Source: Acidobacteriaceae bacterium | Lineage (GTDB): Bacteria; Acidobacteriota; Terriglobia; Terriglobales; Acidobacteriaceae | Length of the DNA: 64,000 nt | Assembly: GCA_003151335.1 (NCBI GenBank) | Contig: PLXE01000016.1 | Location: 1-64,000, forward strand | Direction: 5' to 3' | In this document: piece after piece, positions 8,625 through 59,452 of the stretch | Numbering within the stretch: position 1 is the stretch's first letter | Layout: the number at the start of each line of letters is the position of its first letter | Translations under genes and position numbers: made by a program | Notes under the pieces: generated by a model | Databases searched by the model: none | Seen by the model: the letters and a program-made list of their open reading frames with translations, nothing else | What the model was told of the DNA's origin: nothing

Positions 8625-9251
8625 AAACGCCGGTCCGAGGTGGAGAGTGCTTTCTGTGTGGCGGGTACGCCTACTACCGTTGCTCCTGGGGGCACCTCCC
8701 TTGTCACAACCGCACCAGCCCCAATCTGTGCTTCGTCCCCGACCTTGACGTACTGTAGGATTTGCGCTCCAGTGCCAACCATGACAGAACGTCCCAGGAT
8801 CACTCCTCCCGAGATATTGGCTCCGGGATTGACGAGCGATCCTGCTCCGATAACTGATTCGTGACCTACGGTGCATCCGAAGTTCAGTTGAGAAAAATCG
8901 CCGAGTTGGACTCCGACGGTTGCAACCGCGCGGACGCAAACTACCGCACCTTTTCCCAGTTTCACTCCGTTGCCAACATACGCGGTGGGATGCACGACTA
9001 GAGGCCACTCCACCTGTGGGTAGCGCCTAGCCAATTCCTGGCCCACCCGAAACTTTGCGATGGGGTCGCCGATTCCCATGGCGAAGGCGTCTACATCGTG
9101 CGCTGCCGGCCAACTGAAGTCGCCCAGGACTGTCGTATTTCCCCCGCGTATTAGTGAGAAAACCCAGTACCTGAAATTCCGGGAACACGCGAAGCATGTC
9201 GGCCAGCTCGCGCGCATTTCCACCAGCTCCGATGATGACAAGCTTCTTCAT
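8621..9251 (-). pseudogene. pglD: UDP-sugar N-acetyltransferase PglD/NeuD, frameshifted
   Basis: The N-terminus MKKLVIIGAGGNARELADML (from 9251) and the left-handed beta-helix acetyltransferase part (from about 9150 to 8621, many hexapeptides such as VIGAGSLVNPGANISGGVIL) are in different frames. The switch falls in a run of five G in acgcgggggaaat. Removing one G gives a continuous 209-residue PglD-type protein, LTNTRGNTTVLGDF across the joint. Start and stop overlap both neighbours by 4 bp, as in an intact operon. It is either a real inactivating mutation, a phase-variable tract, or a homopolymer sequencing error. The enzyme would N-acetylate the 4-amino UDP-sugar. Confidence 0.85.
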
Positions 9252-46657: not shown

Positions 46658-46903
46658 ATGGCCGAACCAAGTTACGAAGAACTCAAAGCCCGAGTCGCGG
46701 AACTGGAAAAGACTCAGGGGCGCAAGCGCGGCAGTCTGGAGTTTAAGGTCAGCGAAAAGGGCGGCATGAGCGTCTATGGCCTGGGACGATTCCCGGTCAC
46801 CCTCTATTACGAGCAATGGGTCCGGTTGCTCGACCAGGTCGAGCAGATTCGCGAGTTTCTGGAAGCCAACAAGGCCGGCATGAAAATGAAGCACGCGGAG
46901 TGA
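46658..46903 (+). CDS. Small conserved-looking protein
   Basis: An 81-residue soluble protein from ATG 46658, with GGGAG 8 bases upstream. The N-terminal 25 residues form a charged helix (SYEELKARVAELEKTQGRKR); the rest, SLEFKVSEKGGMSVYGLGRF and YYEQWVRLLDQVEQIREFLE, is mixed strand and helix. No family is recognised. Last gene before tRNA-Arg. Confidence 0.65.
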   Translation: MAEPSYEELKARVAELEKTQGRKRGSLEFKVSEKGGMSVYGLGRFPVTLYYEQWVRLLDQVEQIREFLEANKAGMKMKHAE

Positions 46904-46984
46904 TGGCTGCGGGACATTGGGATAGTTCCGGCCCGTAAGGCGCACCACGGCTATGATCGTGGCGCGTGTATAATTTTCAGGAGC

Positions 46985-47061
46985 GCGCCCGTAGCTCAGC
47001 TGGATAGAGCGATTGCCTCCGGAGCAATAGGTCGGGAGTTCGAATCTCTCCGGGCGCGCCA
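46985..47061 (+). tRNA. tRNA-Arg (CCG)
   Basis: Complete cloverleaf: acceptor GCGCCCG/CGGGCGC, anticodon loop CTCCGGA (anticodon CCG), T-loop TTCGAAT, encoded CCA. Its 3' part is the left attachment site of the adjacent island. Confidence 0.96.
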
Positions 47062-47062
47062 G
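47015..47062 (+). repeat. attL core (48-bp direct repeat, left)
   Basis: The 3' 47 bases of tRNA-Arg plus one base, identical to 57134-57181. It begins in the anticodon loop region and ends one base after the CCA. Confidence 0.93.
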
Positions 47063-47096
47063 TTTTCAGTAACTTCCCTGTTGCCTCTATTCCCGC

Positions 47097-47121
47097 TGTG
47101 TTCAGAACGTGATCAATTGGC
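47097..47121 (+). repeat. Candidate integrase arm site, left
   Basis: TGTGTTCAGAAC and following 13 bases match 57033-57057 with two differences. One copy near each att core suggests arm-type integrase binding. Confidence 0.5.
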
Positions 47122-47125
47122 AGGG

Positions 47126-48352
47126 TCACTGCACACCCCCAACCGTGGGAAGTGTGGTCAATGCGGCCTGCTCCGGGGCAATGCCGTCGTACATGGTGTC
47201 CACCATCATGTACACCGACTCCGGCAATTCCTTGACGTAGTTCTCCAGCGTGGTATCCGGACGGGTGTGGCGCAGGATGGTCTGCACGTCCTTCACCGTG
47301 CCCATGCGCTCGCCTACCGCCAGCGTGGCATAGGTCCGGCGGAGAATCTGGAAATTCAGTTTGCCAAGCCCCAGCTTGTCACGGATGGGCTCCAGCACTC
47401 GGGCTTCGAAGTTCTCGTAATCCATGAAGCCGCCTTGGCTGTTCGGGAAGATGAAGTCTTGCTCCCGCGGCCACTCGCTCAGAGTTCTCCACTCGAGCAG
47501 TTCGGCGGCGAGCCGTTTTGGCAAGGGAACGCAATTCTCACTGTTCGCAGTCTTCGCCCAGGGGCGCAACTTGGATTTGTATACCGTCTCGGTGACGCGC
47601 AGCGCATAGCGATCGTTTGGCAGCTTTTCGAGACTGTGCCACCGGAAACCGAATAATTCACCCGGCCGGACGGCAGTACCGGAACCAACCTTGACCACCA
47701 ACTTGTCTCGGAGGGTTTGCGCGGCATGGATGACTGCCTGATATTGCAGCCACTCCAACACGGTTTCATCGGGCTTCCGCGTCTTCGGGCGCCGCAACTT
47801 GCGCGCCGGATCTTTCGCCAGAAAATCCTGCTCTACCGCTTCGCCGCATATGGACCTCAGACAGGTGTGACAGTGGAAGACCATTGACCGCGAATAGTCA
47901 CGGGATAATTGATTAAGCCAGCTTTGCAGCTTTACAGAATCCAGGTCCCGCAGCGCTGTCTCGCCAAAGTTAGCCAAGATGGCGCTCACAAAATGGGAGT
48001 TGCTCTTCCGCGTGGTGGAGCTCCAATTCCCCTCGACTGTCGGCAGCCAACGGTTCTCCACGAACCACGTTAGCGATACGCGGTCATCACGGCGAGAGGT
48101 GTGCTCGGCATTGACCGGAGTCAAAATCTTGTTGAGTTCCTGCTGCGCCTCAAACTTGCGCATCTTGCTTTTCTCGCCGACCACGCGGCTGCGATGGTGG
48201 CGCCCTTCCTTGCCGGTCTGTGAATCTTTTACGTACTCATACCAGTGAGCCTTCCAGGTACGAGCGGCAGTCTCTTCGATCCAACCGTCCTGATGGCGTG
48301 CGCGCATACGGTTATTACCTCTACCGCTAATCATATGCTCAGCGCTCGGCAT
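47126..48352 (-). CDS. int: Tyrosine recombinase (phage integrase)
   Basis: A 408-residue site-specific integrase. N-terminal arm- and core-binding parts are followed by the catalytic domain: first Arg in GTAVRPGELFGFRW, second motif QILRRTYATLA with Arg but Asn-Phe-Gln where a His is common, then QTILRHTRPDTTLENYVKEL with His and nucleophile Tyr. It abuts tRNA-Arg at its 3' end and should catalyse integration there. It overlaps the excisionase gene by one base (TAATG). Intact. Confidence 0.92.
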   Translation of the reverse strand: MPSAEHMISGRGNNRMRARHQDGWIEETAARTWKAHWYEYVKDSQTGKEGRHHRSRVVGEKSKMRKFEAQQELNKILTPVNAEHTSRRDDRVSLTWFVENRWLPTVEGNWSSTTRKSNSHFVSAILANFGETALRDLDSVKLQSWLNQLSRDYSRSMVFHCHTCLRSICGEAVEQDFLAKDPARKLRRPKTRKPDETVLEWLQYQAVIHAAQTLRDKLVVKVGSGTAVRPGELFGFRWHSLEKLPNDRYALRVTETVYKSKLRPWAKTANSENCVPLPKRLAAELLEWRTLSEWPREQDFIFPNSQGGFMDYENFEARVLEPIRDKLGLGKLNFQILRRTYATLAVGERMGTVKDVQTILRHTRPDTTLENYVKELPESVYMMVDTMYDGIAPEQAALTTLPTVGGVQ

Positions 48353-48555
48353 TAATCAACCGCCTTCTGAAGATGCGCGTTGATAAATTCCTGCACGTCT
48401 TCCGGTCGGAACCGCAGCACGGCCCGCTTGCCACCCAGCCGCACAACGGGCAGCCGCGGCTCGCGCCGGGTGGCGTGATCCCTCACCCACGCCCGGGAGA
48501 CGTGGAGCGCCTCCGCGACCTGCTCATCCGACCACAGTGGTTCTGGTACTGCCAT
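48352..48555 (-). CDS. xis: Excisionase-like helix-turn-helix protein
   Basis: A 67-residue MerR/Xis-type winged helix: LWSDEQVAEALHVSRAWVRD followed by GGKRAVLRFRPEDVQEFINA. It sits directly upstream of int in a coupled pair, the usual place of a recombination directionality factor. Sixty bases upstream is a perfect palindrome with repeated CTATAACGG half-sites. Confidence 0.82.
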   Translation of the reverse strand: MAVPEPLWSDEQVAEALHVSRAWVRDHATRREPRLPVVRLGGKRAVLRFRPEDVQEFINAHLQKAVD

Positions 48556-48598
48556 GCCTGAGACCGTAGCACCCCAGGCCGGAAGCTGTACGGGATGA

Positions 48599-48660
48599 AA
48601 AATCGGGGAATTTCTATAACGGGTACCCGTTATAACAAATCGGAGGAATTTCTATAACGG
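48599..48660 (-). promoter_or_regulatory. Operator-like repeats upstream of xis-int
   Basis: A perfect 20-bp palindrome (TATAACGGGTACCCGTTATA, 48615-48634) overlaps the first of two direct repeats of GGAATTTCTATAACGG, giving three CTATAACGG half-sites. The site lies between xis and the NUMOD3-like gene on their shared strand, so it could control xis-int. No repressor gene is evident nearby. Confidence 0.6.
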
Positions 48661-49530
48661 TTTCAGCGGGCCGCGCGACCATACGCCCGGAGTCACCCGC
48701 CGGTAATGCTTGTGATACTGAGCGACAACACCAACCTCGTAGTGCTCGCGCTCGGATACGAGCCGCCGCGCAGTGACAATCAAATGACGGTCCAGCTTGC
48801 GATCCACTGGAATCTCTCTCTCTACCTGGGTGCCAATCTGGAAATACCTCTTTTCCTCTTCGGCGTCAGGGGGACGGCCCACGCCCCGCTTCGGCTGTTT
48901 CGCAGTGCGGTGATTGGCCCACATGCTCTTAATATCCGCTTGCCGCTCGGGAGTCCATGCCCGCTTCCCACTCTTCCGTAACCGCTCGCGCACTTCGGGC
49001 CGCGCCAGCGTCCGGCGAATCTTGTTTTTCCTTCGCGCCTTCTGTTTCGGCGTGAGGTTTTCCCATGCCCGATGGACATTTTCGCCCTTGCGCTTTTGGA
49101 TTTCTGGAACGCGCAAGGCCCGCGTGCAATTTTCGATTCTCTGCTTGCGCTGTTCGGGAGTGAGTTTCGCCCAGGTTCGCCGCTGGCGCTCGCTGATAGC
49201 CTTGCCCACTTCGGGCTTGGCGAATGTTCGCCGTTGTCCCTTTGTCCTGCGCTCGCGCACCTTTTGATCCGTCCAACTCTGTTTCGTGGCTTCGCTTCTG
49301 CTCTGGAGCAGTTTCGGATCGGTTAGCCGTTTTTTCATGGACTCACTGATTCGCTTTCGCAGTCGCGGATCGGTCATGCGCTTCTTCATTGCTAGGCTGG
49401 CGCGCTCGCGCACTTTGGGATTGGCGAAGTGCCTTTTCATGGCCGCACTCTTACGCTTGCGCTTTTCGGGATCGGCCCAACTCCGTTTCGCCGCTTCGCT
49501 TCTGCGCTGACTTTCCTCGGGACTGCTCAT
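48652..49530 (-). CDS. NUMOD3-like tandem-repeat protein
   Basis: A 292-residue highly basic protein. ATG 49530 overlaps the stop of the upstream 47-residue gene (ATGA). Residues about 5-190 contain nine to ten units of 17-22 residues with the pattern S-x2-(A/M)-(K/R)-x2-(W/F/M)-x-(D/N)-P-x-(L/V)-R-x-R, such as SEAAKRSWADPEKRKR and SLAMKKRMTDPRLRKR. These resemble NUMOD3 DNA-binding modules of homing nucleases, but no nuclease domain is present. The C-terminal 100 residues have no recognised domain. It may be a DNA-binding protein of the island. Confidence 0.7.
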   Translation of the reverse strand: MSSPEESQRRSEAAKRSWADPEKRKRKSAAMKRHFANPKVRERASLAMKKRMTDPRLRKRISESMKKRLTDPKLLQSRSEATKQSWTDQKVRERRTKGQRRTFAKPEVGKAISERQRRTWAKLTPEQRKQRIENCTRALRVPEIQKRKGENVHRAWENLTPKQKARRKNKIRRTLARPEVRERLRKSGKRAWTPERQADIKSMWANHRTAKQPKRGVGRPPDAEEEKRYFQIGTQVEREIPVDRKLDRHLIVTARRLVSEREHYEVGVVAQYHKHYRRVTPGVWSRGPLKPL

Positions 49531-49670
49531 GGTTTCTTCTTCCCCCATCGCACTTCGGCGGCATGCTTGGCGATGGCTTTTCTCTGCTCCGGTGTGAGTT
49601 TCTTCATGCGAGCGGCCACGCTGCGCTTGCCCAGGCTCACGGCCGCAGCATTTTTCTTTTTGCTGGTCAT
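49527..49670 (-). CDS. 47-residue basic protein
   Basis: A small ORF (MTSKKKNAAAVSLGKRSVAA and on, ending RWGKKKP) whose stop overlaps the NUMOD3-like start by 4 bp. It includes LTPEQRKAIAKHAAEVRWGK, a motif close to the repeat units in the downstream protein (TPEQRK also occurs there). It may be a split-off repeat or a DNA-binding peptide. It is too short for most gene callers. Confidence 0.6.
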   Translation of the reverse strand: MTSKKKNAAAVSLGKRSVAARMKKLTPEQRKAIAKHAAEVRWGKKKP

Positions 49671-49738
49671 GTCAGAACAATATCATGCTCAGCGGTGAGA
49701 AAAAAGAGATAGAATCATCGCTGGAGGGGGTGCGCTAA

Positions 49739-50428
49739 ATGCCTCTGTCGGAACCTCAAATGCTGGTCGAGTTGAATGAGCAAGATCTCGTTGCGCGGTT
49801 GAAAAACTTCGAGGATCACTTCGTTGAGAGGAAAACCGTCAAAGATGAGAAGGACTGGCTGAAAACGGCAGTGGCTTTCGCTAACTCCGCGCCTGTCGGA
49901 GTCCCCTGTGTCCTCTACATTGGAGTGAGAAATAACGGAGAGATTGAAACCCCACAGGTGAACCTCGATGAGGTGCAGAAGAAATTCAATGTGAAATTGA
50001 AGAAAGCCTTTCCCCCAATCCCCTATATACCGAAAATCATCAATGAGGCCGGACGGCAGGCCCTAGCGGTCATCGTCGTCGGGAGTGCGTTGCGTCCCCA
50101 CTTTGCCGGTCCCTCTTACGTGCGAAAGGGTTCCGAATCACTCCCTGCATCTGAAGAACAGTTTGATGAATTGATTGCGAGTCGGAACAGCAAGGTTAGG
50201 ACGATTCTCTCGTTTAAAGGAAAGCCGGTAAAAGTCATTAATCGATACCATCGTGCCCAAGGAATAGACGAGACCCACTGGAACAAGAATCCGGTTGTTG
50301 TGTTCTGCAATGAATGGTGGGTAAAGCTGCAGGACCCCGGCGGGGCTCTGTTCACTTTCCCACTTAGCGACATAACCCTAAGCTTTGATGATGGAATTAA
50401 GAGTCTTCTGCTCTACGTAGAGCGCTGA
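49739..50428 (+). CDS. Schlafen/AlbA_2-domain protein
   Basis: A 229-residue protein. FVERKTVKDEKDWLKTAVAF followed by ANSAPVGVPCVLYIGVRNNG is the AlbA_2 (divergent AAA-4) core, a putative nucleic-acid-binding or ATP-binding fold of Schlafen-like proteins. The C-terminal half (about 130-229) lacks the common helix-turn-helix and is unassigned. AlbA_2 proteins on mobile elements are often linked with defence or regulation. That is not shown here. Divergent from the NUMOD3-like gene. Confidence 0.8.
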   Translation: MPLSEPQMLVELNEQDLVARLKNFEDHFVERKTVKDEKDWLKTAVAFANSAPVGVPCVLYIGVRNNGEIETPQVNLDEVQKKFNVKLKKAFPPIPYIPKIINEAGRQALAVIVVGSALRPHFAGPSYVRKGSESLPASEEQFDELIASRNSKVRTILSFKGKPVKVINRYHRAQGIDETHWNKNPVVVFCNEWWVKLQDPGGALFTFPLSDITLSFDDGIKSLLLYVER

Positions 50429-50434
50429 AGCGAG

Positions 50435-50692
50435 ATGGCGGCCCGCAAAACGGCGCCGCAAGCTGGGCGCGATGATCTTCAGGATGTTCGGCTTTTGAGA
50501 AGCAGTTTAGGAGTCCGGTTCCCAGACTCGCTCATCCCCGACAAACTAGTGTTTGTCCAGCCCGGGGCGCGCATAGTCCTTCGGCAGCACACCCTTGAGC
50601 GCGGAATTGTCCCACTCGATTGCTTAGAGCACTTCGGAGGGAAATTCCCTAGAACAATAACGCAAACGCTTGCACACGAAGTCCCAAATTAA
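50435..50692 (+). CDS. Possible small protein
   Basis: An 85-residue ORF starting 6 bp after the AlbA_2 gene. No recognisable domain and a weak ribosome-binding site. It stops 20 bases before a sigma-54 promoter. It could be cotranscribed with the AlbA_2 gene or be spurious. Confidence 0.3.
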   Translation: MAARKTAPQAGRDDLQDVRLLRSSLGVRFPDSLIPDKLVFVQPGARIVLRQHTLERGIVPLDCLEHFGGKFPRTITQTLAHEVPN

Positions 50693-50711
50693 CGGATCTA
50701 CAAGGCTTTAC

Positions 50712-50731
50712 GATGGCAATTGAATTGCACT
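50712..50731 (+). promoter_or_regulatory. Sigma-54 promoter for PEP-CTERM gene 1
   Basis: TGGCAA, five bases, TTGC: the -24 GG and -12 GC doublets are at correct spacing. The start codon is about 77 bases downstream. Confidence 0.7.
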
Positions 50732-50807
50732 GTAACCAGTGGATTTTGTCACTTTGGGACTACACAGTGGTAGTTTTTCCAATTTGAACTACAGGAGGTT
50801 TCACCCC

Positions 50808-51479
50808 TTGAAAATTCGCATCGCTACTCTGTCACTCACAATTCTGTGTCTCGCGTTGAGCGTTCCCGCCTTCGCGGGCTACAGCAACGGTCCGACACTT
50901 GGCACCCTCAATGCGTATTTTATCGACGGCCCTAACGGTCCATTTGGCCAAACCATTTCCGACGGGTTTATCGAAGTTGGGACCGGCAACGCCATTAGCT
51001 ATTCCTTCGCTGAGTGGGTACTCGCCGGTGACACGCCGACGGGCGTTGACTGGTCGCTGGGCAGCACGTCGTTCGGCAACAACCTTGGCTTCGGACATAC
51101 TTTCATCGACAGCACCAACTCCAGCGTGTTCTGCCTTAACGGCCAGGGTAGCTGCGGTGGAGGCTTCGGTTACGACGTTTACATCGTCACTGGGACCCTC
51201 AACGGCGCCTCTTTGGCAGACCTCGGCCAGTACTATTTCACCCTAACGAATGCCACTGACAACCGCGGCGACGGGTTTAACGGGTGGGACGTAAACGAAG
51301 GTCCCGCGACTTGCTACTTCCAGAATGCTAGCGGGAGCGGCGGGTGTCCGACAACCGAATCGGAATCGTTCACGATCAACACCGGCGGCGGAACGACTCC
51401 GGAGCCTAGCAGCATCATGCTGTTCGGTTCTGGCATCCTCGGCCTCGCTGGTGTATTGCGTCGCAAGCTGACCCGCTAA
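50808..51479 (+). CDS. PEP-CTERM sorted secreted protein 1
   Basis: A 223-residue exported protein. TTG 50808 is chosen because AGGAGG lies 8-9 bases upstream and a signal peptide (KIRIATLSLTILCLALSVPA FAG split at residue 22) follows at once. The C-terminus is a textbook PEP-CTERM tail: TPEPSSIMLFGSGILGLAGV, then RRKLTR. An exosortase would cleave near PEP and anchor or release it. The middle is Gly/Asn/Ser-rich beta sequence with two Cys pairs. Expression is likely sigma-54 dependent. No exosortase gene is in the window. Confidence 0.9.
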   Translation: MKIRIATLSLTILCLALSVPAFAGYSNGPTLGTLNAYFIDGPNGPFGQTISDGFIEVGTGNAISYSFAEWVLAGDTPTGVDWSLGSTSFGNNLGFGHTFIDSTNSSVFCLNGQGSCGGGFGYDVYIVTGTLNGASLADLGQYYFTLTNATDNRGDGFNGWDVNEGPATCYFQNASGSGGCPTTESESFTINTGGGTTPEPSSIMLFGSGILGLAGVLRRKLTR

Positions 51480-51512
51480 TTAATCCCGACCCTTCCCCCA
51501 GGTCTTATCGGA

Positions 51513-51539
51513 AGCCGGAGCTCAGTGCTCCGGCTTTTT
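51513..51539 (+). terminator. Rho-independent terminator of PEP-CTERM gene 1
   Basis: Stem AGCCGGAGC/GCTCCGGCT with a 5-base loop and T-run, about 35 bases after the stop. Confidence 0.88.
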
Positions 51540-51854
51540 GGCATCTTACGCTGTTCGCGCCGACGTTCAAGGCCCGAGAAATTCAAACTGAGACACTACC
51601 TGATTTTCCGGCTGTTCGGGCTCTAAAAACTGACGTTTTGTCAGTCGGCCGGGCGCTAAAACGGAAATTCCGACTGTAACCCGCTTCCCATACATCGCAA
51701 CACTTTTCTCTCTCGTAGCAATGTCACCTCTAAGCTCATGAATGCATTACACAGAGATTGGCATTTAAATTGCACTTGAGGTAACGGATCATTTCCAGAC
51801 CCGCTGGGACCAAATTCGAAATCCCGGCTTCGATCCTTGGAGGTTTTGGACGAC
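51540..51854. other. Spacer with second sigma-54 promoter
   Basis: About 315 bases between the terminator of PEP-CTERM gene 1 and gene 2. It holds the promoter at 51758-51775 and no gene. The first 200 bases are of unknown role. Confidence 0.55.
51758..51775 (+). promoter_or_regulatory. Sigma-54 promoter for PEP-CTERM gene 2
   Basis: TTGGCAT, five bases, TTGCAC: correct GG/GC doublet spacing and close to the full consensus. It is about 80 bases before the ATG at 51855, matching the distance in gene 1. Confidence 0.75.
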
Positions 51855-52490
51855 ATGAAACGCCTTGCGCTATTACTCCTCGTCGGCCTATGCGCCACGG
51901 CAGCATACGCCGGAACAGTTTGGGACTACTCGCCCATTAACACCGACGCTGTTTGTTGTTGGCAAAATCAGACGGCGATGCAGAATTTTGCCGACAACTT
52001 CACACTGTCGGTGAACACGACCATAACCGGCTTCAACCTCTTCACGGGCAATTTCCCACCGAGCGGCACCTATAACGTCCACCTGTACGCCGACAGCGGT
52101 GGCGTTCCCGGCGCCCTCCTCGATTCGCAGAACGTCAGCGCGTCGAGCTTCACGTTCTATGGGAACCTCGGTGGAAACGACATTTACGAGGCCGTGTTGC
52201 CCCTTGCGCCAATTGATCTGCTGGCGGGAGTGCAATACTGGATTGGCGCCTCTGGCAACGGCTTCGAGGCGGGGCAGCTCAGCCTCCAGGGGCCAGGAGA
52301 CCCAGGCGACGGGCAAATGGCACAGTTTTCTGGCTCGACCTTCCAGTTTATGACTCAGGTAGGGGACCAGAGCTATCAGCTGATCGGCAACCCCACGGGC
52401 GGCACCACGCCGGAACCCGGCACGATGGTCCTGCTCGGCACAGGTCTCCTCGGTGCGCTTGGAGTGATGCGCCGCAAGATGAATATGTAG
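51855..52490 (+). CDS. PEP-CTERM sorted secreted protein 2
   Basis: A 211-residue exported protein. ATG 51855 follows GGAGG and begins a signal peptide (MKRLALLLLVGLCATAAYAG). The C-terminus TPEPGTMVLLGTGLLGALGV followed by MRRKMNM is a PEP-CTERM sorting signal. The middle (VNTTITGFNLFTGNFPPSGT, YNVHLYADSGGVPGALLDSQ) has the strand pattern of a jelly-roll adhesion-type domain. A hairpin terminator follows 40 bases downstream. Its relation to gene 1 is a shared sorting signal and promoter type, not sequence homology over the body. Confidence 0.9.
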   Translation: MKRLALLLLVGLCATAAYAGTVWDYSPINTDAVCCWQNQTAMQNFADNFTLSVNTTITGFNLFTGNFPPSGTYNVHLYADSGGVPGALLDSQNVSASSFTFYGNLGGNDIYEAVLPLAPIDLLAGVQYWIGASGNGFEAGQLSLQGPGDPGDGQMAQFSGSTFQFMTQVGDQSYQLIGNPTGGTTPEPGTMVLLGTGLLGALGVMRRKMNM

Positions 52491-52530
52491 GTCCTACCCT
52501 CCTCCGTGGTTCAGCGGTAGAGTTTCAATG

Positions 52531-52557
52531 GCCGGGGCGAAAGCGCTCCGGCTTTCT
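52531..52557 (+). terminator. Terminator of PEP-CTERM gene 2
   Basis: Stem GCCGGGGCG/CGCTCCGGC with loop AAAG, followed by TTTCTT. Confidence 0.8.
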
Positions 52558-52802
52558 TGTGTGCGCCGGGCATGACCGACAGCTTGTCACAGCTCACGTG
52601 CCCAGCGTCTTGGTTATGGTGACATCCCCACCCTCCATGACGTTCGTGTATGGTTCCTCAGATGCTTCGCCTGACAGCAGATAGCTTGTGAAAAGTCCCC
52701 ATATCACAAGTGATCGAAACCGAGGAGGTTCTCAACGGCGGGGATCATCGATTCAGAGCGCGAGCAGGGAGCAGCAATTGCTGAATTTTCAGGGAGACTT
52801 AT
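52558..52802. other. Spacer between converging cargo and capsid module
   Basis: No gene. It contains repeat copy 1 (52688) and otherwise no recognised signal. Confidence 0.5.
52688..52721 (+). repeat. GTGAAA-CCCCATATC repeat, copy 1
   Basis: About 33 bases matching 62838-62869 and 63863-63894 (GTGAAATCCCCATATC-type core followed by a CAAGTAATC-type block). This copy has two extra bases before the CCCC. Confidence 0.65.
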
Positions 52803-53486
52803 TCAGTTTGGCCGGGCTTGCTGATAGTCGAAGAAGCCCATAGCCTTGCGCGCTTCAGGGATTCGCGCCCGAATTGCCGCTTCCCATTCATTCAACCAGC
52901 GCACGCCTTCCGCATTCGGCCCCGAGCAAGGTCCTTCTAGCACTTCGCGCCCTTCCGGTAATACCTCGGTTTGCTCGTAATCGGCCGCAGTGAGCACCCG
53001 CAATTCATGCGGAGTCAGCAGATTGTGCCTTTGCAAAAATGCAGCCTGGCTCTCGAAAACAGGTCTGTCGGACGCATCGAAGCCCGCCCACTGCACCGGC
53101 AGCCCGAGTTCATAGGACGGAACGTAGGCCATAACCATCCATGCAGGGCAGCCCGAGCCGGAGATAAACTTGCGCTGCTCGGGAAGCCTAGCGTCGTAAT
53201 AACAGCCCTGAAAATTTCCCATCGGTTGGCGTGGCGCTTCGCACCTCCACCACGCGCTTGGCCGGGTGCCCGGGTGATCTTTCACCCACCCGCCCAACAC
53301 TTCGCCGCGCGCCCGGTCCCACACTTCGCGCAGTGCTTCGCCGTCGCCCGCTTCCAGCAGCAAAACCTCGAGGTGTGTTTCTGAATCACCGTCGGGAATT
53401 GGAAGATCATTCAGGAAGGCCCACACTGCATCGCTGATTTCCAGCTTGGGCCGCGTGGCGAGTATCCGGCGCCTTGCATGAGCCAT
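52803..53486 (-). CDS. Phage-associated hypothetical protein
   Basis: A 227-residue soluble protein with AWWRCEAPRQPMGNFQGCYY, SGSGCPAWMVMAYVPSYELG and VFESQAAFLQRHNLLTPHEL. This layout recurs beside small-terminase genes in many prophage-like elements, from memory, but its function is not known to me. It is the last gene of the minus-strand capsid module, 3 bp after the small-terminase gene, so it is probably cotranscribed. Confidence 0.75.
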   Translation of the reverse strand: MAHARRRILATRPKLEISDAVWAFLNDLPIPDGDSETHLEVLLLEAGDGEALREVWDRARGEVLGGWVKDHPGTRPSAWWRCEAPRQPMGNFQGCYYDARLPEQRKFISGSGCPAWMVMAYVPSYELGLPVQWAGFDASDRPVFESQAAFLQRHNLLTPHELRVLTAADYEQTEVLPEGREVLEGPCSGPNAEGVRWLNEWEAAIRARIPEARKAMGFFDYQQARPN

Positions 53487-53489
53487 CGC

Positions 53490-53843
53490 CTAACCTGCCT
53501 TCCGATAAACCGGCAACATTGGCGCGCGTGGCGACTCGGGCGCTTTCACGTCCAAGCCAATTTCGCGCAGCGCAGCGATGAATTGCTTGCGGGCTTGCTG
53601 CTCGACTGCGATCCCAGGGTGTGGTTTGACGTTGCCGCGGTCAGTGAAATACGGCCCGCTGGCGCTTACCGCTTCGCGCGCTTCGAGCGCACGATCCCAA
53701 CTTTCGCAACCGATCTGTAACAAGCGGAGGTGGTGCGCTTCCAACTCGTATTGCCTGACCACAATTCGCCAAAATGCCTTGCTCGCGTCGCCCAGGTGGG
53801 CCGGAGGCTTGGGAATGCCCCGCGATTTTCTGCTAGATTGCAA
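53490..53843 (-). CDS. terS: Phage terminase small subunit, P27 family
   Basis: A 117-residue protein with the P27 frame: PAHLGDASKAFWRIVVRQYE, LLQIGCESWDRALEAREAVS, and the C-terminal HPGIAVEQQARKQFIAALRE followed by IGLD. P27 proteins recognise phage DNA for packaging together with a large subunit. No large subunit is in the element, so a helper phage would have to supply it if packaging occurs. A roughly 300-bp gap without a gene separates it from the protease. Confidence 0.88.
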   Translation of the reverse strand: MQSSRKSRGIPKPPAHLGDASKAFWRIVVRQYELEAHHLRLLQIGCESWDRALEAREAVSASGPYFTDRGNVKPHPGIAVEQQARKQFIAALREIGLDVKAPESPRAPMLPVYRKAG

Positions 53844-54140
53844 GCTCTCAACCCCCGTGTTTTAGAATCCGTTCCCTCAAAAACCTCGAAGAAGGCTGCG
53901 GCGTGGTCACGATTGAAATAAGCCCCAACTTCTAACCGGCCCCCTGCCAACAACTTACAGCCATTCAAAGCGTCGTGCCTGTCTCACTCAAGCCCGACGC
54001 CATGCTTTGTGAAGCCGCAAGCGGACCGCACAAACCTGATTGCATTCGCACCAGGATCGGCAGCGTGGTCCTGGTTTGGCCCGCTGCCGATGCTGGCGCT
54101 CGACTGAGGGGAACTCCGAGAAAGCCTCAGTCAACTTCGC
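53844..54140. other. Gap inside capsid module
   Basis: About 300 bases without a recognisable gene on either strand between the protease and terS. A lost connector or HNH gene could have been here; nothing recognisable remains. Confidence 0.4.
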
Positions 54141-54659
54141 TCACCGCATCCCCTTCTTTACCAGCGCTCGCAGCTCTTTGATTGCGCGTAATGCCCCTGA
54201 GTGATCGGCAGTCTTAACCGCTGTGACCGTTGCCAATTCATTCATGGGGAAAGCGGTCAGCGATACCTCGTAGAGTTTTAGCTCCTTGAGGTGTCGAATG
54301 CCGTCTTTCACCAAACTGCGCGTCACGTCATAGCCAACCGAGAGCCCTTTAACCGCGCCAGCTTTCAGTAAGGCATACGCCCGTTTTGCGATGTCATTGG
54401 AATCGAGCACTAATTGCCCGTGGATTTCCAGCCCTTGCTGAGTCTCACGCAATCGTCCGATGCCCACGATCGCAGCCGCATCGTGCGCCCAGAGTATCGG
54501 CACTTCGCCGCCCTTGTCGGCAAGCGTTTTGGTGAATGCGCCGTGCTCGACTAGATCGCCGCCCGCGTCCACATTGCCGAAAGTGCTGGCGAGTCCAACA
54601 AACTCGCCAGCATCCCCGACCATTTCCTTGACCTCGAATTTCAGCCCTTTGACTGGCAT
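54141..54659 (-). CDS. HK97-family prohead protease
   Basis: A 172-residue serine protease. GEFVGLASTFGNVDAGGDLV, the catalytic His in VPILWAHDAAAIVGIG and the Ser in GLSVGYDVTRSLV, plus the C-terminal LYEVSLTAFPMNELATVTAV, are all in the family positions. It would trim the capsid delta domain during prohead maturation. Encoded 15 bp after the capsid gene, downstream of it, opposite to the usual protease-then-capsid order of HK97-type phages. Confidence 0.9.
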   Translation of the reverse strand: MPVKGLKFEVKEMVGDAGEFVGLASTFGNVDAGGDLVEHGAFTKTLADKGGEVPILWAHDAAAIVGIGRLRETQQGLEIHGQLVLDSNDIAKRAYALLKAGAVKGLSVGYDVTRSLVKDGIRHLKELKLYEVSLTAFPMNELATVTAVKTADHSGALRAIKELRALVKKGMR

Positions 54660-54674
54660 GGTTCAAGCCCCCGG

Positions 54675-55814
54675 TTAGAACGTGCCCGCAACGAACGCAG
54701 CCGACTGATACAGGGTCAAACACAGCCGGGATTCGCAAAGTATGGCGCACATGTTTTGCACAAACATGGAATCGTGTTCGCGCGAAATTTCCAGACTCGC
54801 TTGCATGCGGTCCCAGATCTCCGCGCCAGCCGTCGAGAAGTCACCAACCAGGAAACTTCCGACTGGCATCTTCGAAGAGACAACCAGCGGTCTGCCCCAA
54901 ACACTCGGAGGTCCGGCAGCGTGCGGGTCGCTGTAGATGTACTCGCCGCTGAAAATGTAAGTACCCGACTGCTTGATTAGACAGATATCGGTCCAGTCAT
55001 CGGGATTGACTACAGCGCCCGTTGCACTGAAACCAGCCGCTTCCACTTGGCCGATTGCGCGCCGAATCGAATCCAACTTTGTTTCGCCGAGGGGAACCGG
55101 GGAAGGGCCGTCGTAAATCGAAGCTCCGTGCATGAGCCCGTTGAGGTCGCCCCCGGCCCCGGTCCCGTTGAGAAGCTGATTTTCCTCAACCAACTTCAGA
55201 AAGTACAACATTCTGCGGTTGATGAAACTCGCCAGGGCCGCGCTATCGTCGAGCACTTGGCGCGACGCGGGAATCCAATGAGCAAGGGTTTGGATTTTTT
55301 CTGCGGCCAACTCAAAAGTGATTCCACTCTGGGCCTTGGCTACGTTTTCGTAGACTTGCGGTGACGAGCCCGCGCCCTGCATGGCTGCTTGATTATCGGC
55401 GCTTTTCTCTCGAACAAACTCGACGGTATTCGAGCCGCATGGAGTGCTTGTCAAAAGGTCGCGCACTCGCAAGGGAATATAGGCCGCTGAGATTGTGGGA
55501 ACGCGAGTCGGCAGTGAATACAAACTCCCGTCGCTGACGATTGCGGTTTTCGTGAAGAAGCTTGTCACCGGGATGCGGCCCGAGCTGCGCTGGCCCTGTG
55601 CGAGAAAAGCCTTGCACTGCTCATGCTCGGTGACGATCTCGCCGATTGACTTAACTTCGTGATCGCCGCCGAAGCCGGAGACGGTCGATTTCGAGAGCCG
55701 CTGCTCGACTGCGGTCAGCCGCTCGCTGGTTTCCACGTTTGCGCTTTTGGTTTTTTCGATTAGCTCGTGCACTTCCGCGCCGAGAGCGTTTACAGCCTCT
55801 TCCATAGGTTCCAT
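54675..55814 (-). CDS. HK97-fold major capsid protein
   Basis: A 379-residue capsid protein of the HK97 family. A coiled-coil delta domain (about residues 1-45, EAVNALGAEVHELIEKTKSA) precedes the shell domain with VPTISAAYIPLRVRDLLTST, ELAAEKIQTLAHWIPASRQV, LVEENQLLNGTGAGGDLNGL and the C-terminal GRPLVVSSKMPVGSFLVGDF. Length and order match the family, with no frameshift. It would assemble the icosahedral shell. It is the only virion structural gene visible. Confidence 0.93.
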   Translation of the reverse strand: MEPMEEAVNALGAEVHELIEKTKSANVETSERLTAVEQRLSKSTVSGFGGDHEVKSIGEIVTEHEQCKAFLAQGQRSSGRIPVTSFFTKTAIVSDGSLYSLPTRVPTISAAYIPLRVRDLLTSTPCGSNTVEFVREKSADNQAAMQGAGSSPQVYENVAKAQSGITFELAAEKIQTLAHWIPASRQVLDDSAALASFINRRMLYFLKLVEENQLLNGTGAGGDLNGLMHGASIYDGPSPVPLGETKLDSIRRAIGQVEAAGFSATGAVVNPDDWTDICLIKQSGTYIFSGEYIYSDPHAAGPPSVWGRPLVVSSKMPVGSFLVGDFSTAGAEIWDRMQASLEISREHDSMFVQNMCAILCESRLCLTLYQSAAFVAGTF

Positions 55815-55979
55815 GATGGGAACACCTCGTATGAAATTTGTGGGATTGTCTCGCGAGGTGGATGGGTCCGGCGTCGCGGCGTTGTGACGGCTTCTCAGAT
55901 CGGGTGGCCTTAACTGCGCCGGCGCGAAACCGAGTAAGTGTCAGGTTTAGAGTAGCGCGCTTTGAAGCGTGTTGCAACA

Positions 55980-56285
55980 TCAATTTACGGTCCCAGCTTG
56001 CCGCGATTCCAGTAAGACTTCCAAGCGCGTCAGTCGCCCGTCGAGCAAGTCAAGCAACTGGTGGAATCCTTCCGCGTGCTTCCGCAAGGTGGCGATAGCG
56101 CCATCTAGCGCAACAATCGCGCTGCGCGTGGCGTCATCCTGCCCCTTGAACGCAGCCGGAAGATCCACGTCAAAAGCATTACGAAGCGAGGCGAAATTTT
56201 CCTTGGCAATGGCGTTATTCGAGGTCAACTCTCGGGCGACTCGCTCAAGTTCCGCAATGCGTTCTTCGATGGTAGGTTCTGGCAT
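55980..56285 (-). CDS. Small coiled-coil protein
   Basis: A 101-residue protein rich in heptad-like helices (TIEERIAELERVARELTSNN, FHQLLDLLDGRLTRLEVLLE). No family is recognised. First or second gene of the capsid module on the minus strand; it might be a scaffold-like or regulatory protein. That is a guess from position. Confidence 0.6.
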   Translation of the reverse strand: MPEPTIEERIAELERVARELTSNNAIAKENFASLRNAFDVDLPAAFKGQDDATRSAIVALDGAIATLRKHAEGFHQLLDLLDGRLTRLEVLLESRQAGTVN

Positions 56286-56304
56286 GAATCACTCCCTTTC
56301 TTCG

Positions 56305-56631
56305 TCATTCATCCTGGTGCCTGTCGCTGAATAGGGCTTGCTGTACCGGGCGGACGGGTCGGTAGAAATTTTCGGGCGCGTGCGGTTTGGCGACTTGGCG
56401 CATTGCTGTTCCGGCGACGAGGCGAAACGAAGAATGTTTCACGCCGTCGACCACTCGGATTTTGTTCTCGATCACAAACCCGAGTCTCCGCAGTTCATGG
56501 ATTCTACTGTTGTATTGCATCGCGCACGCCGCGATTTCCGGGAGCCCGATCCATTGCCCGCGGGCCGAAACCAACAGGCCCAGGATCTTGTCGCGTTGGC
56601 TTTTCGTTTCCACTAGAGACACCTCGGGCAT
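56305..56631 (-). CDS. Phage-type helix-turn-helix protein
   Basis: A 108-residue protein. RDKILGLLVSARGQWIGLPE followed by IAACAMQYNSRIHELRRLGF and VIENKI is a winged-helix domain common in small phage genes with an RNA- or DNA-binding role. Start uncertain: ATG 56631, GTG 56622 (best-spaced G-rich upstream box) and TTG 56664 are all possible. First gene of the minus-strand capsid module. Confidence 0.65.
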   Translation of the reverse strand: MPEVSLVETKSQRDKILGLLVSARGQWIGLPEIAACAMQYNSRIHELRRLGFVIENKIRVVDGVKHSSFRLVAGTAMRQVAKPHAPENFYRPVRPVQQALFSDRHQDE

Positions 56632-57048
56632 TCCCCCCGTGATCTTTGCTTTTAGACTCGTCAATCAGCCAAGCAAACAGTCACAGAAACGCACTTACCC
56701 CTACTTGCGCCAGCCCCCGCTTGTTGCTTTACTGGCGAGCCCGTATTCACCCGTTTTTCTTTCCGATCACTTGCAAGACCAGGACGTATGCCCGTAATGT
56801 CGCTTCCGGCGACATGCCGCAGTCCACTAGCGGCCCGGAGCCTGGAAAACCAACCTCTCGACTGGAATAGGTGTTTGGGGGTAGGAGTGACGAACAAACC
56901 GGCCAGTTTTTTTGGGTTTGGGTGTAAGCTATAGCCGGGAAGCAACCCCACGTCGTTGACGGCGACGCGCAACTCGCACTTAGGTAAAAGGCCGCTCATT
57001 CCAGAGCGGCCCTGTTCTTTGTCAAGACAAATTGTGTTCAGAATGTGT
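56632..57048. other. Right-end spacer of the island
   Basis: About 415 bases between the capsid module and the right att region. Long ORFs here run through the tRNA-like repeat and are spurious. It holds a terminator at 56990-57011 and the candidate arm site at 57033-57057. Confidence 0.6.
56990..57020 (+). terminator. Hairpin terminator near the island end
   Basis: GGCCGCTC, loop ATTCCA, GAGCGGCC, then CTGTTCTTT. It could insulate the island from the neighbouring element in either direction. Confidence 0.65.
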
Positions 57049-57057
57049 TCAATTGGC
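57033..57057 (+). repeat. Candidate integrase arm site, right
   Basis: Twenty-five bases matching 47097-47121 with two differences, 77 bases before the right att core. Confidence 0.5.
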
Positions 57058-58344
57058 GCCGATAGTGCCGCACAATGCCGCGTTAGAGCGGCTGCAAACG
57101 ATTGATTCTGCGATAAACGCGGGTATTGAGACAGCCTCCGGAGCAATAGGTCGGGAGTTCGAATCTCTCCGGGCGCGCCAGAGTTCTTCTTGCCCGTCAG
57201 TAAGTTGCGGCTGTTCTGATAGCCCGCCGATTCCCTCACTTTTCAGACTGTGCCCAATTTTGTGCCCACCTAGCCTCGACATCGCCGAAAGCACCGCGTC
57301 CTCCGAGGGATGAACATAGCGGCTGGAAATCGCAACCGAGCTGTGTCCCGCAATGCGGGCTAGCGTCCAAGCATCACAGCCCGATTCGCCCAAGCGAGTC
57401 AGGAACGTGTGCCGGAGATCGTAAAGCACGAACGTGCGTACCTTGCTGAGCTTTACAGCGCGGATGTGCTGTTTCTTAAGGCTCGAATGGTCTATGTGGC
57501 CGCTGAGGGTTGGAGCAGGCCACAGCCAGCCCTCTGCGGGCCTTCCAGCGCATTTCTAGGACTGCCCTCACCCTCGGAGTCATCGGCAACACGCGACGGG
57601 CTGCTGCAGTTTTTCCGTGGCGCACCAGCACAGAGCCGTTGCGACCGTTTGCCCAGGTCAAGTCTTCCCAGCAAAGCCGATAGCACTCATCTGGACGCAT
57701 CCCGGTATCGGCCAAAATCGTGGCAACATCGGCAAGCAAAGGCGAAGCAACCGCTAGATACTTGCCCTCTTCTTCCGGGCTAACAACCCGCTCCCGGTGG
57801 TTCTCACCCGGCAGCAAGGCCAGCTTAGGCGCCGACTCAATCACGCCCCATTCAGCGGCGAGATTCAGCATCCGTCGGAGCACGCGGATCGTGCTGTTGA
57901 TCGAACTCACGGCCAGCCCGCACTTCTCCTCGTCTTCACCCCGTCCGCGATTCTGGAAGCGAGTCTGCTCGTAAACGGCGAAGCCCGCCACTTTCTCATT
58001 CGTGATTTCATCCAACTTGGTATTCGCCAGTGTCTCGTATCTGGTGAGGCGACCGATTCCAGCGCGAAACCAGAACCAATTGTTGCGGCAAGTGTTTTCG
58101 AATGTCGCCTTCGCCCAAGGTTTGAATCTTCGTTCGACAAACTCTTTCAGAGTGGGGATCGGCTTCTTCTCGCGAATACCGACCTCGCCCTTTGCAAGAG
58201 ATGTGCGATGCGCTGCTTCCATTTGCCGAGCGATATTTTGGTTCCTTTGCCGGGTTGATTCCCGTATCGCCTCACCGTTGAAGGTGAACTTGTACCAAAG
58301 GTGAACTTGTACCAATAGATTGAACCGCGCTTGTAAATCGACAT
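57049..58344 (-). pseudogene. Second tyrosine integrase, two frameshifts
   Basis: The N-terminus MSIYKRGSIYWYKFTF is followed by a tandem 17-bp duplication (58281-58297 and 58298-58314) that shifts the frame; removing one copy joins it to NGEAIRESTRQRNQNIARQM. The catalytic Arg is in DTGMRPDECYRLCWEDL. A second shift near 57495 separates it from the box II part, LYDLRHTFLTRLGESGCDAW and RIAGHSSVAISSRYVHPSED (Arg-His-Tyr present). The extreme 3' end reads through the att core as RARRDSNSRP, a known artefact of tRNA sequence. It is a dead integrase of another element inserted at the same tRNA. Confidence 0.88.
57134..57181 (+). repeat. attR core (48-bp direct repeat, right)
   Basis: Exact copy of 47015-47062, the 3' part of tRNA-Arg without its 5' half. 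It marks the right end of the island, and a second integrase gene abuts and reads into it. Confidence 0.93.
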
Positions 58345-58356
58345 CCTGAATCCCCC

Positions 58357-59163
58357 TTATCTGTTCTTTGCATAGATCCCGTACCCGAACTGCCGACGCT
58401 CATCCCTCACGGTGATCTTGGTCTTCCTCGTCTTCCGCTGCCAAACGGTGTGAGCGCAAAGATGACTGCAATAGTGGTTTTCGCGTCTTCCTCGTGTTTC
58501 GTACTCGAAAAGGCGTCCGCAATCCGCCCGCTTACAAACGCGGAACCTACCACCGCGCATGATCTTTAGCTGTGCGACCGCAATCAGTGACGGAAGCGTT
58601 TCATGGGTATTCACTTCCGCAATGTATTCGCCGAAGCTCTTCTTTATCTTGAAGTGGAAGCCCGCATTGAACGCTTCTTTCCAACCGAGTGGCAGCGCAT
58701 CCTGATCTACCTCGACCAATGGGCGCCTAGAAAGCAGCATCTGAGCCAACAATTCCTGAAGCTCCCAGAAATCTGTCACACCATTCCGCAGGTCTCCGGC
58801 ATTGAACAGCCATTCCGGTTTTTCGTGTATTGGCACGTCGGGATCACAGAAGTGGCCCGTCGCGTTTAAGAAGGCTAACAAGTCCTCGATCGTTTTGAGG
58901 GCTGTGAAGTCCTGCAGCAGGGCCCAAGGATCCTCGAATCGCCGAGTAATCGCTGCGTGTCTTTCCTCCAATTCTTCGTCGGTCAGATCGTAATGGTAGG
59001 GGAAGCCATCTACTTCTTGTCGAAGTTCAGAGGCGTAGACAAAGTCATTTGGGTAGCTTTCCAACTCCACGCAGGGAATACCGTCCTCCTCGCCCGCAAG
59101 CCGCCAAACGCCTTTGATGGTCGAGGCATTGAGTTGAAAGCGGATTCCCAAAATATGAGACAT
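58357..59163 (-). CDS. CGNR-like zinc-finger protein
   Basis: A 268-residue protein whose end is 12 bp from the start of the broken integrase. The C-terminal motif FRVCKRADCGRLFEYETRGR with later NHYCSHLCAHTVWQRKTRK gives C-x4-C-x16-C-x3-C, the spacing of CGNR zinc fingers that bind nucleic acid. The N-terminal 190 residues have no recognised domain. It is probably cotranscribed with the integrase and may regulate that element. Confidence 0.7.
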   Translation of the reverse strand: MSHILGIRFQLNASTIKGVWRLAGEEDGIPCVELESYPNDFVYASELRQEVDGFPYHYDLTDEELEERHAAITRRFEDPWALLQDFTALKTIEDLLAFLNATGHFCDPDVPIHEKPEWLFNAGDLRNGVTDFWELQELLAQMLLSRRPLVEVDQDALPLGWKEAFNAGFHFKIKKSFGEYIAEVNTHETLPSLIAVAQLKIMRGGRFRVCKRADCGRLFEYETRGRRENHYCSHLCAHTVWQRKTRKTKITVRDERRQFGYGIYAKNR

Positions 59164-59254
59164 AAAAAACTATATTGTTTATCTTCGCTTTCCCTTGGAT
59201 ACTAATAGCGGAGTTGGAACGAAATTGCAACAACTTTTTTGGAGGATTACGAAA

Positions 59255-59452
59255 TTGGACGCATTGATCTCGGTAAACGAAGCAGCCCGCCGCCTTGGCG
59301 GAATCTCGAAATGGACAGTTCACGCCTGGCTCTCACAGGGGAAACTGCAACGGACGAAAGTTGGCGGACGCACGATGATCCGCGAGTCCGAATTGCAGAA
59401 GGTCATCGAGGACGGCGGTAAATCGGCGGCACCGCGTCGCCAAGGGAAATGA
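59255..59452 (+). CDS. Excisionase/MerR-like helix-turn-helix protein
   Basis: A 65-residue protein. TTG 59255 is preferred because GGAGG lies 9 bases upstream; the frame is open from 59195. SVNEAARRLGGISKWTVHAW followed by GRTMIRESELQKVIED is an Xis-type DNA-binding domain. It is divergent from the CGNR-like and integrase genes, so it is a good candidate for the directionality factor or a regulator of that second element. Confidence 0.75.
   Translation: MDALISVNEAARRLGGISKWTVHAWLSQGKLQRTKVGGRTMIRESELQKVIEDGGKSAAPRRQGK

Follow-up and report, generated by a model that had tools for sequence, protein, structure and literature searches.

A 10-kb mobile island inserted in a tRNA-Arg gene carries genes for its own HK97-type shell, but none recognised for the portal, the large terminase (TerL) or the tail, and because relatives with the same plan occur in related bacteria, it probably builds its own small head and borrows the rest from a helper phage. 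The earlier note, made from the sequence alone, had described a 10.1-kb element bounded by an exact repeat of the tRNA-Arg 3' end, with intact int, xis, capsid, protease and small terminase (TerS) genes, and our analysis confirms that observation. Its reading of the element as a capsid-forming phage satellite more reduced than those described is likewise supported, although it is less new in kind than the note implied, since islands with capsid and protease and no named portal are listed in mycobacteria (PMC3986857).

The island in tRNA-Arg

The window, i.e. the whole 64,000-nucleotide stretch of DNA analysed, contains tRNA-Arg(CCG), identified by ARAGORN and by Rfam, and two exact copies of a 48-bp repeat of its 3' end, 10,119 bp apart from start to start. 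When 47 bp of this repeat was searched with up to 3 mismatches allowed, it matched in none of 100 shuffles. The features of the region 46985-58315 are as follows.

46985-47061 (+), tRNA-Arg(CCG), integration target (RF00005)
47015-47062 (no strand), attL, left copy of the 48-bp exact repeat, over the tRNA 3' end
47126-48352 (-), tyrosine integrase, intact (PF00589, 4.5e-08; phrog_1, 2.7e-41)
48352-48555 (-), small HTH_17 protein (2.6e-07), AlpA/excisionase-like, role inferred
48652-49548 (-), repetitive basic protein, unknown (phrog_22215, unknown function, 2.4e-04)
49739-50428 (+), Schlafen/AlbA_2 domain protein, cargo (PF04326, 2.3e-08; no PADLOC match)
50739-51479 (+), PEP-CTERM protein, cargo (PF07589)
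51837-52490 (+), PEP-CTERM protein, cargo (PF07589)
52803-53486 (-), protein X downstream of TerS, unknown (no Pfam, PHROG or PADLOC match, and none in the phage collection)
53490-53843 (-), P27-type TerS, start codon uncertain, TTG as listed (PF05119, 1.2e-07; phrog_83, 1.8e-12)
53878-54133 (-), conserved noncoding block upstream of terS, candidate packaging site
54141-54659 (-), HK97-type head maturation protease, S78 (PF04586, 8.9e-23)
54675-55814 (-), HK97-type major capsid protein (PF05065, 1.4e-41)
55980-56285 (-), small charged protein upstream of capsid, coiled-coil-like by eye, with a homolog in the second element of this genome (see below)
56305-56664 (-), small protein, winged-helix-like by eye (phrog_21071, unknown function, 0.0046)
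57134-57181 (no strand), attR, right copy of the 48-bp repeat
57049-58315 (-), integrase of the neighbouring element, not part of this island, its 3' end overlapping attR

The integrase, xis-like, TerS, protease and capsid genes are all uninterrupted, and capsid precedes protease in transcription, whereas the neighbouring integrase is split over two frames (57049-57429 and 57476-58315). The capsid gene is full-length, and the profile of our capsid alignment A4 (13 sequences) matched HK97 gp5 (3qpr) over 17-383 of 385 with an E-value of 3.6e-106. Prediction of the capsid structure from the same alignment, the route to head size that the note had suggested, gave a mean pLDDT of 48.5 and was not used, so that head size was not modelled.

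No match to PF04860 (portal) or PF03354 (TerL ATPase) was found in the genome that contains the window. PF03354 alone is a weak test, as it was found in only 5 of the 12 genomes that had a portal, but the island also has no unassigned ORF of portal or TerL length, and no match to our local models of portal, TerL, adaptor, tape measure or HNH. The portal, TerL and tail module expected of a prophage was thus not recognised. A third copy of the att core lies on another contig of the assembly (C28, 25482-25528), most likely the chromosomal far end of a tandem array, so that the island would be the first of at least two elements.

Relatives, gene order and selection

The note had named occupancy of the tRNA-Arg site in relatives and the same arrangement in other genomes as points to examine. 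In two congeners the tRNA-Arg is joined directly to the right flank without the island. The genome that contains the window has a second element of 10,012 bp in tRNA-Ala, with a capsid 78% identical, and family- and class-wide searches found more portal-less islands in other tRNA genes as well as two circular contigs; the assignment to Acidobacteria was not tested. Nine elements with fixed ends measure 9,156-10,152 bp, with a CV of 3.3%. Left out of this statistic were L139 (numbers with L denote collected loci), which has protease then capsid, no portal seen and a cut contig; L140 and L141, of 8,551 and 8,619 bp in tRNAs, in which no protease was found; L014, with a 19-bp repeat, 8,504 bp and no tRNA; L144, which is decayed; L013, L015, L043, L044, L048 and L049, where no second att was found or the contig was cut; and the IMG/VR fragments.

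All 22 capsid-protease pairs found in capsid-then-protease order lack a nearby portal and TerL, while 69 of 75 pairs in the opposite order have a portal. Two scans of a collection of genome contigs found no relative. Of the 79 IMG/VR loci kept (from the best 80 of 275), only 4 show the capsid-then-protease plan, and none has overlapping ends. Our local models may miss divergent portals, since five long IMG/VR loci (L123, L124, L125, L128 and L129) match none of portal, TerL or protease. A further scan of the viral contigs, A2, gave one locus, L022, cut upstream of its protease and with an adaptor match. Among 72,556 plasmid records, 30 and 34 with similar capsids were counted, without examination of their gene order.

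The portal-less capsids do not form one clade, so such elements arose repeatedly. A single origin was rejected (p-AU 1.2e-94), with the limits that we chose the phage rows, 15 of the IMG/VR loci among them, that the label was defined by gene order before the test, and that L022 was labelled phage though its portal is not in view. Proteases were gathered but no protease tree was built. The HK97 positions K169, N356 and E363 are kept in 18, 18 and 19 of 19 portal-less capsids, respectively.

According to the note, its interpretation would fail if relatives proved to be full prophages with recent gene loss, or if the capsid genes evolved without purifying selection. Neither was the case: the second element and the other capsid-then-protease islands are also portal-less and of like size, and dN/dS is 0.21 for the capsid and 0.16 for the protease, i.e. 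both evolve under purifying selection. These findings bear on the possibility that the island is a cryptic prophage remnant that has lost tail, portal and TerL. This copy lacks a recognised replication gene, having no match to the DnaB-like gene of its two nearest relatives, it sits beside a broken integrase, and L144 shows that decayed capsid loci exist. However, relatives in many tRNAs keep the same core genes, order and size, phages with a portal have the opposite gene order, and the insertion is absent in congeners, so that the remnant reading is already weakened and we consider it very unlikely.

The noncoding block beside terS is found in only two places in the genome, and its stretch of ~120 bp at 53900-54019 is 97-100% identical to the second element, which makes it a candidate packaging site. 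TerS, however, is only 40% identical between the two elements, which does not fit a simple TerS-binding site, and a 21-base piece of the noncoding core had no match in IMG/VR. An RNA reading of the block received little support, as the core is not more stable than shuffles in L009 (z 0.08) and only weakly so in the window (z -1.57), and no Rfam family but the tRNA was found up to E 1 in 46900-58000. The neighbouring stretch 54010-54140 does fold well (z -3.71), and the 75-bp block shared by L047 and L049 looks like hairpins with a terminator (z -5.24), so for that pair a terminator or small RNA is not excluded.

A probable satellite that makes its own head

The interpretation that we favour, with reasonable though not full confidence, is that the island is an integrated phage satellite that makes its own small HK97 head and borrows portal, motor and tail. 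The analysis itself establishes the site-specific insertion, the intact int and xis-like genes, the full-length capsid gene with its protease under purifying selection, the P27 TerS, the lack of a recognised portal, TerL or tail, and the set of like-sized relatives with the same plan. What we infer from these is the life cycle: when a helper phage grows, int and xis would excise the island, its capsid and protease would assemble a small head, a helper portal would be built into that head, the helper motor, guided by the TerS and/or the noncoding block, would load the DNA, and a helper tail would complete the particle. HK97 and D3 heads assemble without portal (PMC12749128), which is in keeping with this view. 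The island is an integrated mobile element lacking genes for a full particle, but its mobilisation by a helper was not measured, there being no induction, particle or read evidence, and no resident helper was found, as the genome has no PF04860 match. Defence genes occur in two relatives, a dGTPase in L012 and type IIG restriction-modification in L050.

Such defence genes, together with the self-assembly of HK97-type shells without portal, could also suggest a domesticated shell, i.e. an anti-phage decoy or nanocompartment carried on a mobile island and not used to move DNA. We consider this very unlikely in view of the P27 TerS in the window and L041, a match just under the Pfam cut-off in L009 and one by eye in L136, an HNH-like gene (by motif) next to a conserved block in L047, and the tight size range.

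The portal is believed to nucleate HK97 head assembly (PMC12749128) and is the docking point for motor and tail. A satellite that makes the shell but not the portal must fit a foreign portal into its own head, so it offers a natural test of how portal and shell recognise each other and what sets head size. The nine measured elements fall in the range modelled for T=3 tailed-phage heads (mean 11.8 kb, 95% range 8.1-17.1 kb; PMC7762592), a size class whose absence that paper calls puzzling. Repeated origin with the same reversed gene order suggests a selected design. More tentatively, it can be envisioned that these islands are a repeatedly evolved class of minimal head-only satellites, in which independently captured capsid genes in a flipped capsid-then-protease cassette build a shell of about T=3, an architecture predicted but reported as missing among tailed phages, and a helper's portal and motor fill it with a unit-length genome of about 10 kb at a helper-specified packaging site.

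Comparison with known satellites

The nearest precedents are the cf-PICIs, the mycobacterial phiRv-type elements and SaPIbov5 Ccm. The cf-PICIs are integrated (or plasmid) satellites that encode HK97-type capsid, protease and TerS and need helper tails. The island shares with them its own capsid, protease and TerS. However, cf-PICIs also encode portal, connectors, TerL and HNH (PMC10690885) and average 14 kb (PMC10803314), and cf-PISP also has portal and terminases (PMC13230959), whereas portal, connectors, TerL and HNH were not found in this island of about 10 kb; relative L047 has an HNH-like ORF. PICIs in general have alpA, primase and Stl-type regulation; here the HTH_17 xis-like protein is present and no primase was found, though relative L041 has a Prim-Pol, which leaves the correspondence undecided.

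Among the mycobacterial phiRv1/phiRv2-type elements, called candidate PICIs (PMC10654092), phiRv1 is 9.3 kb and phiRv2, in tRNA-Val, 10.8 kb, and phiBN42_1 is listed with integrase, excisionase, primase, prohead protease and capsid as its only five assigned functions (PMC3986857). The island has all of the corresponding set but the replication gene, while L009 and L012 have a DnaB-like gene; with the sequence relation to phiRv elements not tested and the size of phiBN42_1 not seen, these observations do not settle membership. In phiBN42_1 the locus numbers put protease (21182) before capsid (21183) counting from integrase (21176), the opposite of the order here, and phiBN44_1, phiMCAN_1 and phiMycsm_1, of 10.9-11.2 kb, do carry portal and terminase (PMC3986857).

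SaPIbov5 Ccm is a satellite-encoded HK97-fold homolog of the helper capsid protein, with a cleaved N-terminal domain, that is used with a helper's portal and redirects helper heads to small T=4 shells (PMC8569155). By analogy, the capsid protein of the island might not make a whole head but co-assemble with helper capsid protein to shrink helper heads, which would fit the absence of a portal and the scattering of portal-less capsids among phage capsids. Co-assembly was not assayed, and we regard this alternative as unlikely, since the islands carry their own protease, unneeded if the helper's is used, and keep the HK97 cross-link positions, and since two islands in one genome (G365) share 75 bp of identical noncoding DNA but have capsids of different clades, which is hard to match to one helper coat. 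Ccm alone cannot form shells and no protease of the satellite's own is reported (PMC8569155), while the islands here pair a full-length capsid with its protease. Finally, the island resembles PICI and P4 in size (averages 9.5 and 10 kb; PMC10803314), and PICI, P4, PLE and PICMI in integration in specific sites and helper dependence, but these elements use helper capsids rather than their own (PMC10803314, PMC11389934).

The tRNA-Arg island and its insertion site

The island is bounded by an exact 48-bp repeat of the tRNA-Arg(CCG) 3' end, the two copies being 10,119 bp apart, start to start. Reading from the tRNA, its features are as follows, with the last minus-strand group listed in transcription order from the right end.

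47015-47062, left copy of the 48-bp repeat
minus strand, int
minus strand, HTH_17 xis-like gene
minus strand, repetitive basic protein
plus strand, Schlafen/AlbA_2 protein
plus strand, two PEP-CTERM proteins
minus strand, winged-helix-like protein (judged by eye)
minus strand, small charged protein
minus strand, capsid
minus strand, protease
noncoding stretch
minus strand, P27 TerS
minus strand, protein X
57134-57181, right copy of the 48-bp repeat

The capsid profile matches HK97 gp5 along nearly its whole length, including the scaffold region (3qpr, 17-383 of 385, E 3.6e-106), while no ORF in the island is an unassigned candidate for portal or TerL by length.

Comparing the locus with the corresponding region of other genomes, we found that in the congener G173 the left flank and tRNA-Arg are joined directly to the sequence that in the window begins right after the second att copy (912 bp at 89%), so this element is absent there. 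In the congener G157 the same junction is present (101 bp of the tRNA side, then 309 bp at 91%), though the wider flanks are rearranged; another att copy lies 11.4 kb after the tRNA-Arg in this genome, also with rearranged flanks (locus L164, 1838-13261), and the genome had no capsid relative in the family-wide search described below. In genome G115 the tRNA is followed within 72 bp by 133 bp (87%) of the sequence that flanks a third att copy of the window genome (G000) on its contig C28, and in genome G187 that sequence follows a second att copy about 420 bp from the tRNA-Arg. The third copy is a copy of the att core at C28:25482-25528 (9483-9529 of the fetched locus L019), with a serine recombinase gene, recognized by eye, about 0.5 kb to its left. 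The window locus is therefore most likely a tandem array, consisting of this element, then a second one whose integrase (57049-58315) is broken, then the far att on C28, which is probably the chromosomal end of the array. The second element was not followed across the contig break, but its start (57049-59452) holds the broken integrase, a cysteine-motif protein without a Pfam match and an HTH-like ORF by eye, a layout like the int end of L009, the other capsid-bearing element of G000.

Portal-less relatives, element size and gene order

The second capsid of G000 is 78% identical to the first and belongs to this element, L009, of 10,012 bp with 45-bp repeats in tRNA-Ala. L009 carries a TerS (PF05119 just under the cut-off), protease, capsid, the small upstream protein, a DnaB-like/AAA_25 replication gene, an HTH_17 gene and an integrase, and has no portal or TerL match. 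A further relative, L012, is a 10,288-bp contig whose ends overlap by 141 bp, i.e. a circle of 10,147 bp, with protease, capsid, replication gene, integrase, AlbA_2 protein and a dGTPase. In 398 genomes of the family, 13 had capsid relatives at 19 places (E up to 1e-30). Portals (PF04860) lay next to the capsid at 4 of these 19 (genomes G030, G217, G269 and G278), while the other 15 had none on their contig, though two of the 15 (contigs C7 and C14 of genome G365) are cut shortly upstream of the capsid. G000 and the single-contig genome G128 have no PF04860 match at all, whereas seven of the other hosts with a portal-less capsid have a portal elsewhere. Other portal families were not searched, and PF03354 matched in only 5 of the 12 genomes with a portal, so that it says little about TerL genome-wide. 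One capsid gene, in locus L015 of genome G040 (8336-10420), forms a single 694-aa frame with a long N-terminal extension. A class-wide search found 19 of 399 genomes positive, in three families. Of 12 regions fetched from it, five hold portal and TerL (L134, L135, L137, L138, L142), L143 has a weak portal match, L136 is one more portal-less island of 10,152 bp in tRNA-Glu, L145 is a portal-less circle, L144 is decayed, and L139-L141 are unclear. L136 shows three att copies at tRNA-Glu (2462-2488, 5052-5077 and 15204-15232), that is, a tandem of the 10,152-bp portal-less element and about 2.6 kb more.

Nine portal-less elements have fixed ends: the window element at 10,119 bp, L009 at 10,012, L012 at 10,147 (circle), L041 at 9,742, L046 at 9,642, L047 at 10,018, L050 at 9,526, L136 at 10,152 and L145 at 9,156 (circle). 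The mean is 9,835 bp, with a CV of 3.3%. We left out L140 (8,551) and L141 (8,619), which have divergent capsids and no protease found, and L014 (8,504), which has a 19-bp repeat and no tRNA found; with them the range is 8.5-10.2 kb. The circles could also be collapsed tandem copies; no read depth was available. L145 (contig C20 of G365) has the capsid-then-protease order, a ParA-like gene by eye and no integrase match, and is a possible plasmid form.

Gene order marks the two kinds of locus. We examined 110 loci (the window, 29 fetched genome loci and 80 IMG/VR loci, with at most two capsid hits each), and 22 of 22 capsid-then-protease pairs, the decayed L144 and two pairs on L082 included, had no portal within 6 kb and no TerL within 9 kb; 13 of the 22 had at least 4.5 kb of sequence on both sides. 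L082 (IMGVR_UViG_3300036802_000310) is a single IMG/VR contig with two portal-less capsid-then-protease modules and two integrases. Of 75 protease-then-capsid pairs, 69 had a portal; of the six without, five are cut within about 1.3 kb upstream, and one (L139) is not explained. Fifteen further capsid hits had no protease match, and none of these had a portal match. Seven of the fifteen have ample flanks (L140, L141 and the five IMG/VR loci L123-L125, L128 and L129), so our local models, built from four phage loci whose labels rest on Pfam hits, probably miss divergent proteins. In HK97-like phages the order is portal, protease, capsid (PMC12749128). A short acidic protein family (model C3) matched only loci with capsid-then-protease order among those examined, namely L013 (9319-9546), L014 (12711-12893), L041 (6719-6916), L044, L048, L049 and L082.

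Capsid evolution and a candidate packaging site

On a tree of 46 capsids (19 capsid-then-protease, 24 phage, 3 unassigned) the portal-less label needs 8 changes, at least 5 of them forced by well-supported branches, and a single clade is rejected (19 against 23 rows, p-AU 1.2e-94). The capsids of the window, L009 and L012 sit with the phage capsid of locus L011, and the rest elsewhere. Capsid and protease evolve under constraint between the window and L009 (NG86 dN/dS 0.21 and 0.16; dS 1.07 and 0.86, near saturation) and between L049 and L050 (0.11 and 0.12). This speaks for the lineage, but it cannot show that the window copy works today. The HK97 positions K169, N356 and E363, which have a role in cross-linking, are kept in 18, 18 and 19 of 19 portal-less capsids.

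Between protease and terS the two elements of G000 share a noncoding block, 87% identical over 259 columns, with 53900-54019 at 97-100% identity, while protease is 78% and terS 44% identical at the DNA level. The block occurs at only those two places in the genome. A like pattern is seen in G365, where L047 and L049, whose capsids lie in different clades, share 75 bp at 100% beside the HNH-like gene or the protease, and a weaker 36-base match lies in L145 of the same genome. In genome G070, L013 and L014 share 116 bp at 93%, but this overlaps a called ORF and may be coding. The position next to terS or an HNH-like gene, and the sharing within one host, suggest a site read by a common trans factor such as a helper's packaging machinery. 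However, TerS itself differs (40% identity) and the G365 block looks like terminator hairpins, and we hold the packaging site only as a lead.

Proposed mode of action and comparison with known systems

The insertion, the gene content, the constraint on the genes and the recurrence of the element are established by the analysis, while its working as a satellite is an inference. In this view the island would be excised on helper growth, a head would self-assemble from capsid and protease, which for HK97 and D3 does not need the portal (PMC12749128), and portal, motor and tail would come from the helper. The head size expected from genome length is about T=3 (model mean 11.8 kb, 95% range 8.1-17.1 kb; PMC7762592). 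Small ORFs of 62-105 aa lie upstream of the capsid in 14 elements, and look coiled-coil-like by eye in several; that they set head size or recruit a foreign portal is a guess.

In the literature searched, which reached few subscription journals, we saw no description of portal-less capsid-plus-protease satellites in this group or of the reversed gene order. The cf-PICIs carry portal, connectors, TerL and HNH (PMC10690885), so this island fails that definition while probably working like one. The mycobacterial phiRv-type islands (PMC3986857, PMC10654092) are the nearest in content and size, and SaPIbov5 Ccm (PMC8569155) is the nearest rival mechanism.
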